NCBI RefSeq assembly: GCF_017549005.1
Contig: NZ_JAFYYT010000002.1
Span: 83,973 to 147,972, forward strand
Direction: 5' to 3'
Length of the DNA: 64,000 bases
Source of the DNA: Ruminococcus sp.
GTDB lineage: Bacteria > Bacillota > Clostridia > Oscillospirales > Ruminococcaceae
Part shown: positions 6,830 to 56,985 of the stretch, piece after piece
How positions within the stretch are numbered: position 1 is the stretch's first letter
Layout of the letters: each line of letters opens with the position of its first letter
Notes under the pieces: model-generated
What the model was told of the DNA's origin: nothing
The model's input: only the letters and a program-made list of their open reading frames with translations
Databases searched by the model: none
Translations under genes and position numbers: made by a program

Positions 6830-7570
6830 ATGTCAAATAATATAACGGTCTCGATAGTCATTCCTGCACACAATGAAGAAAAGTACGTAGTACGGTGCAT
6901 TGACAATGCAAAAATTGCTGCTTCAAAGGTCAGGTGCGGTGTCGAGATTATTGTTGTTTGCAACAGATGTACAGACCATACGGCAGAGCTTGCAGCTGCA
7001 AACGGTGCGAGAGTACTGACAGATGAGAGCAGATGCATAGCTGCTGTGAGGAATAAAGGGATAAAAGCCGCAAGGGGCAGAGTCGTTATCACCATTGACT
7101 GCGACAACCGCATGACCGAGGGCACTATCCGCGAAGTCCTGGGGAGACTCAACAGCGGAAAGTATATCGGCGGCGGAGCTCCGATAAGGTTTGAACGTTA
7201 TTCGTTCCCCATATGGGCGAATGACGTATTGTGTCGTTTAGGATTTTGGATCACAGGAGCATACTGCGGTATTTTCTGGGCTGAAAAGTCGACATTTGAC
7301 GCCATAGGCGGATTTGTGGACAAGAAAGCGGCAGAGGATATCGCTACTGCCATGAGATTACGCCGTTACGGCAAAAAGGAGGGAAAGAAATACGGCTGTC
7401 TGAAGAAGAACTGCCTTATCAATTCTACAAGGAAGTATGACAAACTTGGTGATTGGTTGTATTTCAGGCTCGCGTTCAGGAATGCGCGCGCACTGATAAA
7501 GGCTGCACTCGGAGACAGAGGCGACTATGATAAGCTCATAGATGAAATGTTTTACGACTACAATAATTGA
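6830..7570 (+). CDS. Family 2 glycosyltransferase
   Basis: A 246-residue soluble GT-A glycosyltransferase. The N-terminus SIVIPAHNEEKYV is the GT2 nucleotide-sugar fold start. EIIVVCNRCTDHT and VVITIDCDNRM match the second strand and the metal-binding DxD-like position (DCDN). There is no membrane segment and no signal peptide, so it acts in the cytoplasm or at the inner membrane face; donor and acceptor cannot be told from sequence. GGGGAAGG precedes the ATG. It stands alone between the cellulase cluster and the scaffoldin, with its own promoter. Confidence 0.88.
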   Translation: MSNNITVSIVIPAHNEEKYVVRCIDNAKIAASKVRCGVEIIVVCNRCTDHTAELAAANGARVLTDESRCIAAVRNKGIKAARGRVVITIDCDNRMTEGTIREVLGRLNSGKYIGGGAPIRFERYSFPIWANDVLCRLGFWITGAYCGIFWAEKSTFDAIGGFVDKKAAEDIATAMRLRRYGKKEGKKYGCLKKNCLINSTRKYDKLGDWLYFRLAFRNARALIKAALGDRGDYDKLIDEMFYDYNN

Positions 7571-7721: not shown

Positions 7722-8174
7722 GTGAAACTTGCAGAAGCACTACAAGAAAGAGCAGACCTAAACAAAAGCATAGAACAGCTCAGGAGCAGACTCGCCAACA
7801 ATGTTATAGTACAGGAAAACGAGAAGCCTGCGGAGGATCCGCAGACCCTGATAAAAGAGCTCGACTCGGCTGTTTCACGGCTCGAGGAGCTTATGAAGCG
7901 TATCAATCAGACAAATTGTATGACTATTTCCGAAGGAAAAAGCATTACAGAGCTTATTGCCGCGAGGGATGCCCTCAAGGTAAAGATCGCTGTATATAAA
8001 GATATCGTTTCCAATGCCAGTCAGACGGCTCGGCGCGCGAGAATGAGCGAGATCAGGATACTCAGCGCCGTGGACGTCAGGAAGCTCCAGAAAAAGATCG
8101 ACGATATGTCGAAGGAGTTTCGTGTAACCGACAATAAAATACAGGCACTCAACTGGTCCACCGAGCTTATGTGA
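7722..8174 (+). CDS. DIP1984 family protein (septicolysin-like)
   Basis: A 150-residue, highly helical, charged protein matching the DIP1984 family: KLAEALQERADL at the N-terminus, ENEKPAEDPQTLIKELD, and the RINQTN motif. The role is unknown; some members have been annotated as septicolysin, a label with weak support. Translation starts at GTG 7722 with GGAG seven bases upstream; the overlapping ATG at 7720 hits a stop at once. It is probably a coiled-coil oligomer (two long heptad-like helices, about 1-70 and 90-145). The gene precedes the scaffoldin gene on the same strand. Confidence 0.88.
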   Translation: MKLAEALQERADLNKSIEQLRSRLANNVIVQENEKPAEDPQTLIKELDSAVSRLEELMKRINQTNCMTISEGKSITELIAARDALKVKIAVYKDIVSNASQTARRARMSEIRILSAVDVRKLQKKIDDMSKEFRVTDNKIQALNWSTELM

Positions 8175-8431: not shown

Positions 8432-8443
8432 TCGGAGGTATTT

Positions 8444-10126
8444 ATGAAAGCCACTAAAATTGCAGCTGTTTGTCTGTCTGCACTGATGTTATTCGGGAAC
8501 CTTGCTTCGGTAGGGACATATGACGTCAGAGCAGCAGAAGAAGAAACAACAGCAGATTTTATCGAGATCACTGAAGGCACAAGAATTGCTGATAATAAAA
8601 TAGTTTACGGTGACGTTACCTATGAGATAGTCGGCGGAAACCACCTTGAGGTATTGACAGGAAAAACAGCTCAGGGATTTGTTTATATCCCGCTGTTTAT
8701 TTCTGGACTTCCCGTAACAGCTATAAAACCGAGCGCTTTCAAGAGCTCTGCTATAACAAGTGTTAAAATTGAAAGAAATGTAACATTCATAGGTGAATAT
8801 GCCTTCAGAAACTGTAAGGATCTGAAGGAGATCCAGATAGAAAATCCCGATTGTGTTATCGAAGGCGGCAGGGATACAATATGCAACGTTAAGCTCGGTC
8901 CCGAATATAACGGTGTTATAAGCGGATACGAGGGCTCAACTGCAGAGAAGCTTGCTGTCGGCGATCCTTCAAAACCATATTGTGAATTCCATAGTCTCGG
9001 TCTGCCTTTTGAGGTAGATGAGAAGGATATACCCAAAAAGCCCGTTGTTACAACGACAGCAGCTCCTACAACAACAACTACTACCACCACCACCACAACA
9101 ACTACCACTTCAACAAAGGCTGCTGCAACAACAACTTCTACAAAGGCGACCACTAAAACAACTAAGGCAACTACGACTACAAAAGCAGCAGTTCAGACAA
9201 CCAGGACGACTGCTAAAGCTGCCACAACTTCTTCATCGTCTGCAGCCACAACTACAAAGGCTGCAACGACAGCCACCACCACCACAACATCAGCCGCTGT
9301 GACTATGTTCGGCGGAACAGGCAAGAACATGAGCAGGATCACTGTTCAGGCGCAGGAGGTCACAACTACTACCGTATCGTATCCCAGCGCTGTACAGGGC
9401 AAGCCTGTTTTCCACCTCAGCAGCACAGAGGTATGCCTTGATGACGCTCGTTCCAAGAACGTACACGTCGAGCTTATGGTAGACGGTGCAAACGGTCTTT
9501 ACTGCAATACCCTCGTTTATCTCTACTTCGACAGCAGAATGAAGGTTGGCGAGGCTTACTGCGGTCCTGCTATCCAGAAGCTTGCAAACGGTCAGGCTAC
9601 CGGCGATACAGGCGACTTCCTCGTACTTGTAACCGCAGGTCGTGATAACGACGGTAAGGACGGCGTAATGTGGGAGATCGAATTTACGCTTCCAAAGGAC
9701 TGTCAGGTAGGCGATGAGTTCAAGTATGAGATAGGACCTACAAAGTACGGCGAAATGCCGCTCTTCACCAATATCCTTTATGATGAAAAGGGCGACGCAA
9801 TGACAGAGCACATCTTTACAAAGGGTGTTGCAAGCGGTACTATAAAGGTAATTGACAATCCGCCATATGCACTTGGCGACGTTAACAATGACAAGTTCAT
9901 CGACGCAGCTGACGCTTCAAGGATACTTGCCGAGTATGCAGCACGTTCAAGCGGAAACAACCGTATATTCAACAATTTCCAGCAGCAGATAGCAGCTGAC
10001 GTAAATGTCAACGGTATAATTGACGCAGTTGACGCTTCACTTGTTCTCAGCTACTATGCATATGCTTCCGGAAGTGAGGGAGTAGGTTCGCTTACGGAAT
10101 ATTTAGCCGAAAGAATGCGAAGATAG
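8444..10126 (+). CDS. Adaptor scaffoldin: LRR-Thr linker-cohesin-dockerin
   Basis: A 560-residue secreted protein. In order: signal peptide (1 to about 31), a short leucine-rich LRR_5/BspA-like module (about 70-150), a Thr/Ala-rich linker (about 200-290), a cohesin (about 320-470) and a C-terminal dockerin (about 477-555). Cohesin features are the opening strands (KNVHVELMVDGANGLY, YLYFDSRMKV), DGVMWEIEFTLPKDCQVGD, MPLFTNILYDEKGDAM and the closing GTIKVID, all like R. flavefaciens type III cohesins. The dockerin loops are DVNNDKFIDAAD and DVNVNGIIDAVD. A single cohesin plus a dockerin is the adaptor logic of R. flavefaciens ScaC: it converts one docking specificity into another. The N-terminal LRR module is not part of ScaC. 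GGAGG precedes the ATG. Confidence 0.85.
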   Translation: MKATKIAAVCLSALMLFGNLASVGTYDVRAAEEETTADFIEITEGTRIADNKIVYGDVTYEIVGGNHLEVLTGKTAQGFVYIPLFISGLPVTAIKPSAFKSSAITSVKIERNVTFIGEYAFRNCKDLKEIQIENPDCVIEGGRDTICNVKLGPEYNGVISGYEGSTAEKLAVGDPSKPYCEFHSLGLPFEVDEKDIPKKPVVTTTAAPTTTTTTTTTTTTTTSTKAAATTTSTKATTKTTKATTTTKAAVQTTRTTAKAATTSSSSAATTTKAATTATTTTTSAAVTMFGGTGKNMSRITVQAQEVTTTTVSYPSAVQGKPVFHLSSTEVCLDDARSKNVHVELMVDGANGLYCNTLVYLYFDSRMKVGEAYCGPAIQKLANGQATGDTGDFLVLVTAGRDNDGKDGVMWEIEFTLPKDCQVGDEFKYEIGPTKYGEMPLFTNILYDEKGDAMTEHIFTKGVASGTIKVIDNPPYALGDVNNDKFIDAADASRILAEYAARSSGNNRIFNNFQQQIAADVNVNGIIDAVDASLVLSYYAYASGSEGVGSLTEYLAERMRR

Positions 10127-10156: not shown

Positions 10157-10235
10157 TTATATAGGAACTTATACTTTATATCGGGGAAGAACCTTTCTGA
10201 GGAAAGGTTCTTCCCCGAACTCTTTTCCAAAAGGA
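10157..10235 (+). repeat. Palindromic intergenic repeat, copy 1
   Basis: About 79 bases repeated in inverted orientation at 11211-11290. The core is a perfect 17-bp inverted repeat (10181-10197 with 10202-10218; tetraloop TGAG) starting TCGGGGAAGAACC. It lies 55 bases after the scaffoldin stop and before the convergent comF stop, so it may also end both transcripts. A diverged third copy is visible near 11000-11040. Confidence 0.8.
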
Positions 10236-12449: not shown

Positions 12450-15059
12450 TTATTCAGCTGCGGGAGCGTCGCCGCCTGCCGGTGCTGCACCGCCGCCTGC
12501 GTCACCGCCTGCCGCTGCACCGCCGCCTGCGTCACCGCCTGCAACTGCACCGCCGCCTGCGTCACCGCCTGCCGCTGCACCGCCGCCGGCATCTCCACCT
12601 GCGACTGCACCGCCGCCTGCGTTTCCGCCTGCCGCTGCACCGCCGCCTGAAGCACCGCCGTCAGCTGCGGCTGTAGTAGCCTGTGTCGTAGACTGATATG
12701 AATGTGCTCCGCTGCAATACGGTGGCTTGTAATCTGCATTGTCCTTGCATATGGACTTCCAGTAGCCTATAGCCCCCCTCGCGCAGTTCGCACCTGCTAT
12801 ATTGCCTGTGTTTGAACATATGGGAGCTTCGATAACGGTGCTGACCTTTTCAAAGTCCGAAGGAGTATCGTTATAGTTGTTGATAATGTAATCGCCGATC
12901 ACAGTACGCCAAACCTTTGCGGAAACGATCCTGTCCCAGGTAAGCTGTACATCGAATGATTTGTAACCTACAGTTATTCCGCTTGCAAAATCAGGAGTAA
13001 GACCTACGAAGCACTCATCAACGAAGTCCTGAGTTGTACCTGTCTTTCCGACAACGGTCTTATTGTAGATCTTAGCGTCGGTACCTGTACCGCTCTCGAT
13101 AACAATTTTCATGAGACGGTTCATAACGTATGCAGTCTCGTCCTCCACAGCACGTTTCGGATTTCCGTCGCACTGATAGATTATCTGCTGATTGCTGTCC
13201 TTTATCATTGTGATGAGGTGAGCGTCGTAATGCATACCCTGATTGCCGTAAGGGATATAGGCGTTTACAAGGTTTTCCAGTGTAACGCCGTTTGTAAGAG
13301 CTCCGAGGGTAAGCGGAGATTCAAAGCCCTCTCCTCTTTCGCCCTTTGAAAGCTCAAGTCCGAGCTTGTCGTGAGCGTAGTCGAAAACATTTTCCTGACC
13401 GCCCTGAACGACGAGCTGTGCAGAGATAGTGTTCATCGAGTCTCTGAGACCCATCCAGAGCTGAACAGGACCGCCGTTGCCTGATACGCCGCCGTAGTTC
13501 TTTGGCCACCACTGACCGTCGTCAAGTCTTCTTACAGGTGAATTCTTTAGGACTGAGCCCCAGTGGAACTTACCGGAATCAATGCCATAGCCGTAGCCTG
13601 CAAGAGGCTTGATGGTCGAACCGACCTGACGGGGCTCCTTGACAGCATAGTTAGTTACGAGAGAGTCTTTCTTTTCGCCTACAGTACCTACTGCACAGAG
13701 GACTTCGCCTCTGTAGTTTATAGCGCAGAATGCAACGTGGGGGAGAGCTTCCTCCTCGTCAACTGTTCCGTCGCCGTTGATATCAACGTATCTTCTGTAG
13801 CTGTACTCAGGAAGAACGTACTGGAAGGTGCTGAAGTCACGGAGCTGATTCTCAACGTAGTCCTGCATCTTCTTGTCGTACTTGATATATACCTGATATC
13901 CGCCTCTCTGTATCTTGGAGAGAGCTTCTTCTTCGGTTATATCGTACATATCCATGAATACTTTTTCCGCCTCAAAGAAAGCGGCGTCGAGTATCCAGCT
14001 GTAGGTCTTTGCCTTTGCTTCGAGCTCCTTGAGCTCTTCCTCGGGGTGATTTCTCTTGTATTCCTCGGAATCCGTGTAAATTATAGGAGTTACAAGGTAT
14101 TCCTGATATTCGTCGTAGGTGATATAGCCGTTTTCATAGAGCTTGTAGAGAACGTACTCCTGACGGGGCTTGTTGTTTGCCTTACCGTCCACGACTATGG
14201 GAGAATTGGGATCGGTGTCGTCCTGACGGTAGATAACGAATGGACCGTAGTCCTCAGGGCTCTTGGGGATAGCTGCAAGAACAGCCGCCTCGGGAGTGGT
14301 GAGCTCGGAAACGTCCTTTCCGAAATAGTCGATAGAAGCCTTCTGTATACCGTTTCTCGGGCCGCCGAATGCGATATAGTTGAGGTATTCTTCAAGTATC
14401 TCGTCCTTTGTGTAGCTCTTTTCGAGCTGCATAGCCGCAAAGATCTCGCGTATCTTACGCTCTGTGGTGTGCTGGTCGTTTCCTGACAGGTTCTTTACGA
14501 GCTGCTGAGTGATAGTCGAACCGCCCTGCTCGGTATTGTAGAAGTGCAGGAACATATTCAGGAATGCCGAGAATGTACGCTTGTAGTCGACACCCTCGTG
14601 AGCGTAGAAACGCTCGTCCTCGGTGCAGATGAAAGCCTGTCTTACGTGCTGGGGTATCTTGTCGATGGATACGGGGATACGCTGCACCTTATTCGGATTG
14701 TGGTACAGCTGCTCCAGCTCGGGATTGCCCTGCTCGTCCAGCACCAGTTCACCGTACTCGTTGATATGGTTGGCGTAGAAGAAAGTATCGCTTCCCGATT
14801 CAAGCTCCTGCAGCGTAACAGTTGTGGAGTCGTCCATGAATTTGAGGACGTAGACCGTGAGAGCGGTACTTACGATAGTACCGGTGATGATGATGACAAG
14901 GATAAGAGAAAGCAGGGTAGTCGCAATGACTGTCATCAGCTTTTTGAATATTTTAAAGACCTTGCTGTGCTTCTTCTTTTTCTTTTTATGGGGATTTTTA
15001 TGCACTTCCATATCTGCGGCTTCAAGATGGCGGGAAGCGTGAAGATTTTTAGAATTCAT
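12450..15059 (-). CDS. Class A penicillin-binding protein (PBP1A-like) with EF-hand-like loop and Gly/Ala tail
   Basis: An 869-residue bifunctional peptidoglycan synthase. It has a basic cytoplasmic tail (HKKKKKKH), one membrane helix (about 40-65), a GT51 transglycosylase (EDERFYAHEGVD, TITQQLVKNL, EEYLNYIAFGG) and a transpeptidase with SxxK (GSTIKPLAG), SxN (SMN) and KTG (GKTGTT). Between them, near residue 425, lies VDINGDGTVDEEEALP, with Ca-ligand spacing like an EF-hand or dockerin loop. The C-terminus is a repeat AGGDAGGGA(A/V). ATG 15059 is chosen because a promoter (15136-15164) overlaps the longer in-frame start at 15137. The SD is weak at this ATG: GGAG lies about 31 bases away, with a small hairpin GCCGTC-acc-GACGGC between. 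Confidence 0.93.
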   Translation of the reverse strand: MNSKNLHASRHLEAADMEVHKNPHKKKKKKHSKVFKIFKKLMTVIATTLLSLILVIIITGTIVSTALTVYVLKFMDDSTTVTLQELESGSDTFFYANHINEYGELVLDEQGNPELEQLYHNPNKVQRIPVSIDKIPQHVRQAFICTEDERFYAHEGVDYKRTFSAFLNMFLHFYNTEQGGSTITQQLVKNLSGNDQHTTERKIREIFAAMQLEKSYTKDEILEEYLNYIAFGGPRNGIQKASIDYFGKDVSELTTPEAAVLAAIPKSPEDYGPFVIYRQDDTDPNSPIVVDGKANNKPRQEYVLYKLYENGYITYDEYQEYLVTPIIYTDSEEYKRNHPEEELKELEAKAKTYSWILDAAFFEAEKVFMDMYDITEEEALSKIQRGGYQVYIKYDKKMQDYVENQLRDFSTFQYVLPEYSYRRYVDINGDGTVDEEEALPHVAFCAINYRGEVLCAVGTVGEKKDSLVTNYAVKEPRQVGSTIKPLAGYGYGIDSGKFHWGSVLKNSPVRRLDDGQWWPKNYGGVSGNGGPVQLWMGLRDSMNTISAQLVVQGGQENVFDYAHDKLGLELSKGERGEGFESPLTLGALTNGVTLENLVNAYIPYGNQGMHYDAHLITMIKDSNQQIIYQCDGNPKRAVEDETAYVMNRLMKIVIESGTGTDAKIYNKTVVGKTGTTQDFVDECFVGLTPDFASGITVGYKSFDVQLTWDRIVSAKVWRTVIGDYIINNYNDTPSDFEKVSTVIEAPICSNTGNIAGANCARGAIGYWKSICKDNADYKPPYCSGAHSYQSTTQATTAAADGGASGGGAAAGGNAGGGAVAGGDAGGGAAAGGDAGGGAVAGGDAGGGAAAGGDAGGGAAPAGGDAPAAE
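12462..12665 (-). repeat. 30-bp coding tandem repeat in the PBP tail
   Basis: Five or six tandem 30-bp units encode AGG(N/D)AGGGA(A/V). The units differ mainly by an Ala/Val alternation, which suggests recent expansion and possible length variation between strains. Confidence 0.85.
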
Positions 15060-15135
15060 TTTGTCAGAATAGCCGTCGGTGACGGCAAAGCTCCTTTCAA
15101 AGATTTTAGTTTCTATACATAAACATACATTATAC

Positions 15136-15164
15136 ATTATAGCACGTTTCAGCAGAAATGTTAA
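15136..15164 (-). promoter_or_regulatory. Promoter of the PBP gene
   Basis: On the minus strand, TTAACA (15164-15159), a 17-bp spacer, and TATAAT (15141-15136). The expected start near 15129 rules out the upstream in-frame ATG at 15137. Confidence 0.75.
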
Positions 15165-55221: not shown

Positions 55222-56985
55222 CTATTTTGTTTCAAGGTATTCTTCAAGGCTTAGCTTTGCCTGACTTGTTGAAGTATAGGCATAGTATGAAAGGATACTT
55301 GAAGCGTCAACGGCGTTTATTGCACCGTCATTATTCACATCGGCTGCCTTTTTCTGCTGTTGGTTGTAACCGCCGTCCTGATCTGTGGATATACGCGCAT
55401 AATAAGCAAGAACAGAAGATGCGTCAACAGAATCTATCATTTTATCACCATTGACGTCACCGAGTAAATACTGATCGTCCACTGTATATACAGCCTTTAT
55501 CGTTACATTCTTCTCATTCGGAACAAGTACAGTTTCCGGACTCGTTTCGTCACCTGATGAAAACTCCGCACCATTTATATCCCAGCGCACAAATTTATAT
55601 CCCGCTCCAGGCACAGCCGCAAGTTTTACAGGCAATCCCTGAGGATAGTTTCCCTGCCATTTACCGTCAGCACAGTCAAGTTCAAGGGTATTGAACACTA
55701 TACTTCCCTGATCCGCATTATTGTCAAGGGTGACATTGTAGGATCCGCTGCCTATCTTATCCCCGAGAAATTCTATAAGGTGCTGTTTTGCCCAGTAGTC
55801 ACGTTCTGCCCAGAAATCGCGCAGTTTTTTTACCTCATAAACAAAGCCTTCCGCAGAGGTCAGCTCAACCTGCTTGCCTGACGCATAGCTTTTGTATGTA
55901 AAGCGTTCAAAAGTCTCAGCCATGGGAGCCATATATGCAGACTGCAATTCGTCAAGTCGGCGCAGTACATTATCAGCTCTGAAGTTTTCATTGCAGAGGT
56001 CAAAATATGTACGCACAAACTGCTCACGGAATCTTTCGCTTTTATTCAGCAATTCAAAAAGTACGCTGTAGCTCCATTCCATTGACAGGCTCTTTGGTAT
56101 AAAAACGTTGTCTTCTTTGGCGCTTACATTATACAGTCCCTGCCCTGCCTCGGTATCATACATAAGAAAGCGCACTTTACCGTCCGCATACGGATTTGTG
56201 CTGTCAATGTTTCTGGTTTTCCAGAATCCCAGATTATTAGCGCCTGAATCACAGTTTGCACAGATTATCTCTACCGCCATATAGTCGGCAAAGCTTTGCA
56301 TATCAACTAAACCTGCGACTTCGTCATACGCTTCTTCACCGTCAGTACAGAATACAGCATCGTCAATTGCATTATAAAGCGATGTGATCTCATTTGTAGC
56401 AGCGGTATCGCTTTTTACAAAAAACACATCTTTCTTTTTGACCTTATAATGATCTGAAACATATTCCTCACTGAGCTTTTCGTTTATATTATAAAGTCCC
56501 CAGAATTCACCGTCGATAAACACAACGCACTCGGTCTGTGCCTGTGTTCCGAAGCTTCTGTCTGCCGCCAGTTCCTGATTTAATCTGTCCCTTATCTTTG
56601 TCTTTACATCATTTCCACCGTTGCGTAGGGTAATGCAGTCAAATTTGTCAATGACCTTTCCTTTTGTATTTTTCAGCTTTCCGTCGAAGAAATCATACTC
56701 TATCTTTCTTGGACCGTATTTACTTCTTGCGTAAAGATTAAAGCTCTTTTGCGATTTCATTCGTGACGCAGCTCCGCGTATACGAATACCTATATCAGCG
56801 CTGTACTCAGCCTTGCCCTTCTCAAATATCGTCATATTTACAGGGCGCTCCCATTCCTTGCCTTGATTGAAATAATTTGGTGCATCCATTTCATTATCGT
56901 AATTGTTTCCTTTGACGTATATGCCCTTTTCAGCTCCAAAAAGGTTGTCAGGATCGGTCACAAGAGAAATAACACGCATATTCAT
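55222..56985 (-). CDS. CotH kinase-domain protein with dockerin, 5' end probably lost
   Basis: 587 residues from the first ATG. CotH domain (about 1-330): GIYVKGNNY, GIRIRGAASRMKSQKSFNLYAR, FDCITLRNGGND, ECVVFIDGEFWGLYNINEKL, then VRFLMYDTEAG. CotH proteins are kinase-like and occur in spore coats and in cellulosomal proteins of ruminococci. A beta module (about 410-500) and a dockerin (505-580: DVNGDKMIDSVD, DVNNDGAINAVD) follow. There is no signal peptide. The frame stays open 16 codons upstream of ATG 56985 (to 57033) with CotH-like sequence (QVSYSEEDYEMN), so the original gene was longer. The dockerin class matches the scaffoldin at 8.4 kb. Confidence 0.8.
   Translation of the reverse strand: MNMRVISLVTDPDNLFGAEKGIYVKGNNYDNEMDAPNYFNQGKEWERPVNMTIFEKGKAEYSADIGIRIRGAASRMKSQKSFNLYARSKYGPRKIEYDFFDGKLKNTKGKVIDKFDCITLRNGGNDVKTKIRDRLNQELAADRSFGTQAQTECVVFIDGEFWGLYNINEKLSEEYVSDHYKVKKKDVFFVKSDTAATNEITSLYNAIDDAVFCTDGEEAYDEVAGLVDMQSFADYMAVEIICANCDSGANNLGFWKTRNIDSTNPYADGKVRFLMYDTEAGQGLYNVSAKEDNVFIPKSLSMEWSYSVLFELLNKSERFREQFVRTYFDLCNENFRADNVLRRLDELQSAYMAPMAETFERFTYKSYASGKQVELTSAEGFVYEVKKLRDFWAERDYWAKQHLIEFLGDKIGSGSYNVTLDNNADQGSIVFNTLELDCADGKWQGNYPQGLPVKLAAVPGAGYKFVRWDINGAEFSSGDETSPETVLVPNEKNVTIKAVYTVDDQYLLGDVNGDKMIDSVDASSVLAYYARISTDQDGGYNQQQKKAADVNNDGAINAVDASSILSYYAYTSTSQAKLSLEEYLETK

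Follow-up and report, generated by a model that had tools for sequence, protein, structure and literature searches.

The window, by which is meant the whole stretch of 64,000 nucleotides that was analysed, carries on its forward strand an open reading frame that joins an LRR module to a single cohesin and a single dockerin. The features of this gene and its flanks are listed below, each with its basis.

8444..10126, + strand: putative scaI ortholog of 560 aa with an ATG start; signal peptide, LRR, Thr linker, cohesin, dockerin
8435..8439, + strand: ribosome-binding-like site GAGGT ahead of the ATG; from the sequence
8444..8533, + strand: signal peptide, residues ~1-30; from the translation, by eye, without a predictor
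8597..9031, + strand: BspA-type LRR_5 module with C-terminal cap, residues ~52-196; from Pfam and a model, with bounds set by eye from the alignment
9050..9394, + strand: Thr-rich linker, residues ~203-317; from the translation
9395..9856, + strand: predicted type III (ScaE-like) cohesin, residues 318-471; from a sequence match, a tree and a model
9866..10123, + strand: symmetric (group-4-like) dockerin and tail, residues 475-560, recognition pairs AA / AV; from Pfam, the sequence and a model
10181..10218, + strand: terminator-like hairpin of 17 pairs, followed by a T-rich tail; from the sequence

The modules claimed in the preliminary description (signal peptide, LRR_5-like module, Thr linker, one cohesin and a C-terminal dockerin) are all present, the signal peptide being a reading by eye. 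When the frames of scaI orthologs are extended in the 5' direction, many of them read 'EV.M' at the place of the GAGGT upstream of the ATG. A promoter-like site was looked for upstream of the gene, and none was found. A fused or frameshifted artefact was ruled out by a full-length ortholog in another genome, to which the window protein is 86% identical, together with the kept upstream motif and the gene order.

Directly 5' of the gene lies a DUF6847 protein (window 7722-8174, + strand), which was found in six of 11 neighbourhoods, and further upstream a family 2 glycosyltransferase (6830-7570), found in eight of the 11. On the opposite strand, a penicillin-binding-type transglycosylase with a long C-terminal Gly-Ala-Asp repeat tail occupies 12450-15137.

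Domain matches and predicted folds

Profile searches for the LRR_5 module and for the cohesin had been proposed in the preliminary description. The LRR_5 model of Pfam matches residues 92-134 above its cutoff (E 1.5e-8; 35 bits against 27.7), as does Dockerin_1 at residues 477-534 (E 5.7e-7; 30.1 bits against 22.9). None of the Pfam cohesin models matches the protein, which fits a remark in PMC11557425 that many ruminococcal cohesins are missed by profile libraries. A search of NCBIfam gave nothing of use, and a Pfam match to coronavirus NSP15 (0.014, under its cutoff) was taken as chance.

The cohesin was recognised through crystallised relatives. The stretch 320-469 is similar to R. flavefaciens ScaE cohesins (2zf9, 2.2e-16; 8ajy_A, 2.6e-14; 4iu2, 3e-14), while the ScaH dockerin aligns with residues 455-549 (4.6e-12). 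An AlphaFold model of residues 301-560, made from a 19-row alignment, reached a mean pLDDT of 83.6 and a pTM of 0.64. Its top matches in the PDB were again ScaE cohesins (2zf9 chains; E 1.1e-14 to 1.8e-14, target TM 0.75-0.76), so that the expectation of the preliminary description that residues 320-470 would model as a cohesin was borne out. The cohesin is predicted to be of type III on the likeness of both sequence and fold to the ScaE cohesin. The modelled dockerin superposes on the ScaH dockerin 8ajy_B with a target TM of 0.86 and an rmsd of 1.5, at 41% identity.

The LRR module is small, with a single Pfam stretch of 43 residues. Its AlphaFold model has a mean pLDDT of 88.8 and is matched best by the BspA-type LRR proteins 4gt6, 4oju and 4fs7, with modest query TM-scores of 0.40-0.47 in six matches at E up to 0.001.

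Likeness to ScaI of R. flavefaciens FD-1

The pairing of an LRR with a cohesin had at first been thought undescribed, a view that did not survive a look at the literature. Row 43 of Table 1 in PMC5301203 (2017) lists ZP_06145744 of R. flavefaciens FD-1 as LRR-Coh-Doc (ScaI), group 4a; ScaI cohesins are mentioned for strains 17, 007c and FD-1 in PMC4081043, and ScaI of strain 17 is named in PMC11557425. The name is also used in papers on R. champanellensis, for a scaffoldin described as of the cell-free type. A new architecture was rejected on the strength of the entry in PMC5301203, and since the layout is already in print, the window protein represents a known part in a further species. The gene is confirmed as real and intact and as encoding a secreted cellulosome connector, and its novelty is low. 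Each trait of the ScaI layout is found in the protein, namely an LRR, a single cohesin, a single dockerin and secretion, the last read from the signal peptide by eye.

The comparison with FD-1 was made through a genome of the genus, G044. Its ScaE cohesin is identical to the letters of 4iu2 at 157 of 157 residues, and its ScaH dockerin is 97% identical to the crystallised 8ajy_B, the sole difference being GR in the genome against AA in the crystal, in repeat 2. The crystal form is probably an engineered mutant. From these matches we infer that G044 is R. flavefaciens FD-1; a 570-aa frame in it would then be ZP_06145744. This frame, with an LRR_5 match of 80 bits, a Thr linker, a cohesin and a dockerin, is the best match to the window protein in G044.

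A tree was built of 31 cohesins. The 21 rows of ScaI type, including that of G044, lie on one side of a single branch with a support of 100/100. The other 10 rows come from the window's own genome (G000) and G044, and several of them have long branches, of which the tool warned; the tree was limited to domains of at least 55 bits and at least 110 residues in span. The profile used to collect the cohesins, A1, matches ScaA and ScaB cohesins at 8 bits or less, which is why these are absent from the tree. Since the FD-1 ScaE cohesin was included in A1, the matches of this profile to ScaE are partly by construction.

The gene order points the same way. ComF, an RlmL-like methyltransferase and the transglycosylase lie downstream of scaI in both G044 and the window; across the 11 neighbourhoods, ComF was found in 8/11 and RlmL in 9/11. 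Within the 18-19 kb fetched for the loci L070 and L072, ComF, RlmL, the family 2 glycosyltransferase and the transglycosylase were not found, and GH9 genes, which lie upstream in the window, were present; the L009 neighbourhood retains RlmL. By best match, cohesin clade and synteny, the window gene is a probable ortholog of the FD-1 LRR-Coh-Doc gene, with G044 taken as FD-1.

The two proteins share the module order, a single type III cohesin, a symmetric dockerin, the downstream genes and the cohesin clade. The cohesin-dockerin part is 48% identical over 231 residues. The LRR of the G044 protein is larger (95 residues by Pfam, against 43 in the window), and its dockerin carries the pairs GI/AV against AA/AV. 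Taken by itself, the window dockerin would not lead to ScaI: among its 37 matches in G044, the FD-1 ScaI dockerin ranks 13th (48%, 1.2e-14), and the top match belongs to a ScaF-like cohesin-dockerin protein, C9 (50%, 5.1e-19).

Among the six G044 cohesins that A1 finds, a scope that leaves aside the divergent ScaJ to ScaP, the ScaI-like one is joined by five others. An LRR is absent from C40, C60 and C9 by Pfam and from ScaE by eye, the frame of C77 lying unscanned at a contig end. ScaH and ScaF (Coh-Doc, group 4a) resemble the window protein in having one cohesin and one symmetric dockerin, and their dockerins are reported to bind ScaE (PMC5301203). They differ from it in that the ScaH and ScaF-like proteins of G044 are without an LRR by Pfam and have cohesins outside the ScaI clade. 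ScaC also has one cohesin and one dockerin, but these are described as a type I-like cohesin and a group 1b dockerin (PMC5301203), and the ScaC-like protein of the window's genome has no LRR by eye. An R. flavefaciens LRR-dockerin protein, L008, shares the BspA-type LRR ending in a GY.GSTAE cap with a dockerin after it, but no cohesin is seen between the two.

Dockerin class and docking partner

In Table 1 of PMC5301203, the dockerin of FD-1 ScaI scores positive with the cohesin of ScaE. The entries for A1, B2, B4, B5-B9, C, G and H are negative, and that for B3 is blank. According to the same paper, the affinity of the ScaI and peptidase dockerins for ScaE was lower by an order of magnitude than that of the CttA, ScaH and ScaF dockerins. 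The window dockerin has two symmetric Ca-binding repeats, in which 13 of 25 positions are equal between the repeats. Three GH9/GH5 enzyme dockerins found in the window by a pattern search have the asymmetric MADAV/MGDAV...NDAL form, as does the ScaC-like protein of the same genome.

These data bear on the idea that the protein is a second ScaC-like adaptor, with a dockerin for the enzyme-type cohesins of ScaA or ScaB and a cohesin that brings in a further enzyme class. ScaC too consists of a single cohesin and a single dockerin, and the genome encodes its own ScaC-like protein of that shape. Nevertheless, the negative results for A1, B2, B4 and B5-B9 beside the positive one for E, and the symmetric form of the window dockerin against the asymmetric form of the enzyme and ScaC-like ones, make this reading very improbable, and docking on ScaA in the manner of ScaC was rejected on the FD-1 binding table and the dockerin form. 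Neither a group 1 dockerin nor a type I-like cohesin, the marks of the ScaC type, is found in the window protein. The preliminary description had proposed a second kind of adaptor. What stands of this is a secreted protein with a single cohesin, a single dockerin and an LRR that is distinct from ScaC; its ScaC-like link to ScaA falls, given the FD-1 dockerin reported as positive for ScaE and the symmetric window dockerin.

A scaC-scaA-scaB-cttA-scaE cluster is present in the window's genome on contig C51 (L079:464-10135 and L068:16497-17384), the ScaE cohesin lying at L068:16497-17384 on the reverse strand; the gene names were given by order and by likeness to the G044 cluster. Both repeats of the G044 ScaB, CttA and ScaH dockerins carry a GR pair. 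This Gly-Arg pair is not found in the window dockerin (AA, AV), nor is it in the ScaI of G044 (GI/AV). In the window's genome, however, CttA itself has AA/AV and ScaB AV/AV, and the absence of GR is for that reason no ground to doubt docking on ScaE. The A/S-V pair is common among the symmetric dockerins of this genome and so does not single out ScaE.

The pairs of CttA and ScaB vary by species: GR/GR in G044; SN and SV in G049; AV/AN and AS/AN in G043 and G087. Both pairs of ScaI equal those of CttA in one of the 10 genomes in which CttA was read, the window's own. The second pairs agree in three (the window's own, G054 and G006) and differ in seven. A second pair ending in N is seen in CttA or ScaB, but not in ScaI, in G049, G018, G043, G087, G071 and G009 (in G018 the pattern caught only one CttA repeat); in G044 the second pair is GR in CttA against AV in ScaI. 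CttA was also sought by pattern at the loci in G034 and G040, which gave none. Elsewhere in the window, a CotH-kinase-domain protein with an InlB-like repeat (55222-56985, reverse strand) has a symmetric dockerin with the pairs SV/AV and is possibly a fellow ScaE client.

Another reading is that the protein serves as a chain spacer, its dockerin binding cohesins of its own kind or of the ScaH or ScaG type, such that several copies, or related proteins, would be strung into a chain and the tether made longer, as has been suggested in print for ScaH. The ScaH dockerin of FD-1 was found to bind its own cohesin (PMC5301203), and a 2025 review relays the view of ScaH as a spacer (PMC12484212). The ScaH dockerin is the closest solved relative of the window dockerin, and the best dockerin match in G044 is that of the ScaF-like protein. 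Against this stand the negative results of the FD-1 ScaI dockerin for the G and H cohesins and the clade of their own that the ScaI cohesins form, apart from ScaE and ScaH. For the ScaI cohesin itself, Table 1 of PMC5301203 has no column. A spacer role is considered unlikely.

The reading that is preferred here, with a probability of roughly 0.74, is that the gene is the ScaI of a species of the R. flavefaciens group and encodes a secreted, ScaE-docked surface adaptor with a free cohesin and an LRR face. After secretion, its dockerin would plug into the ScaE cohesin, as the published FD-1 data suggest for this species. As ScaE is attached to the cell wall by sortase, ScaI would share the cell surface with ScaB and CttA. 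The single ScaI cohesin may then offer a different dock to a further dockerin protein, and the small LRR, on its long and flexible Thr-rich linker, may add a protein- or glycan-binding face.

Distribution in the genus and variation of the LRR

Matches to the ScaI-type cohesin-dockerin part, at 299-424 bits, were found in 23 of the 125 genus genomes at 24 places (two in G016), the next match scoring 185 bits. Across the family, 297 drawn genomes from 126 genera gave a match beyond 1e-40 in the window's own genome only. The members in G100 and G101 were outside the reading of frames, as was that in G120 unless L010 derives from it, a frame of 570 aa being present in each. An LRR is present in 17 of the 21 scored frames and absent from three, and one (L018) is cut by a contig end; the count was made with a profile, A3, that was itself built from 13 of these frames. 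As a check, the LRR_5 model of Pfam gave 35 bits for the window, 80 for G044 and 27.3 for L021, just under the cutoff of 27.7, and found no LRR in the three LRR-less frames, L020 (G062), L022 (G054) and L023 (G034). The neighbourhoods in G062 and G034 are rearranged, with GH9 genes near and the ComF side absent in the stretch fetched. The LRR is thus not essential to the family, being absent in three of 20 uncut frames.

These counts help to weigh the proposal that the protein is mainly a surface adhesin whose working part is the LRR, the cohesin being a leftover that binds little. Table 1 of PMC5301203 lists no dockerin partner for the ScaI cohesin, none was found named in the literature consulted, and LRR modules are frequent on the dockerin proteins of FD-1 (28 in a 2010 count). 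The cohesin-dockerin part, however, is better conserved than the LRR (mean column identity of 60% over 19 rows against 42% over 13 rows, the row sets being different), and it is kept without an LRR in three family frames. We regard an adhesin of this kind as quite improbable and retain the ScaE-docked adaptor as the preferred reading. It is reported in PMC5301203 that the co-expression screen gave the ScaI cohesin in insoluble form, and that for the majority of LRR-protein dockerins the microarray showed no binding to any cohesin tested.

Several further genes combine the same modules. In G016, a second and more diverged ScaI-type LRR-Coh-Doc gene with LRR_5 (C316, L121:2474-4129) scores 299 bits, against 418 for the first copy. 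LRR-cohesin-dockerin proteins with extra N- and C-terminal parts are encoded at L119:1512-5114 (G034) and L120:3479-6226 (G037). Their cohesin-dockerin parts reach 178-185 bits against the ScaI profile, where the ScaI family scores at least 299; they were outside the tree and are possibly separate LRR-cohesin fusions. The window's genome has a very large 2299-aa frame (C48, L118:3-4244), read here over the 1414 aa fetched, with a weak N-terminal cohesin-like match (E 3.7e-4), a long LRR_5 array (788 bits) and a Thr-rich stretch at the fetched end. It also has a cohesin-dockerin gene with one in-frame TAA (C50, L080:18041-19003, also L004), perhaps a pseudogene, perhaps an error of assembly.

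A more far-reaching view, which is speculative and leans to the doubtful side, is that ScaI stands for a branch of its own within the surface complex of the R. flavefaciens group. The ScaI cohesin clade, which occurs together with the dockerin in 23/125 genomes, would recruit a dockerin class that no described cohesin binds, and the joining of LRR and cohesin, seen also in L119 and L120, would be a recurrent device that adds target recognition to adaptor scaffoldins.

The LRR-cohesin-dockerin layout belongs to a scaffoldin family that is kept across species and is not a curiosity of one strain. The 20-odd orthologs provide material for finding the partner of the ScaI cohesin, and some of them are perhaps more soluble than the insoluble FD-1 cohesin. 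The change of the CttA and ScaB recognition pairs from species to species (GR, AV, AN, SN) offers a natural series for the study of type III specificity.
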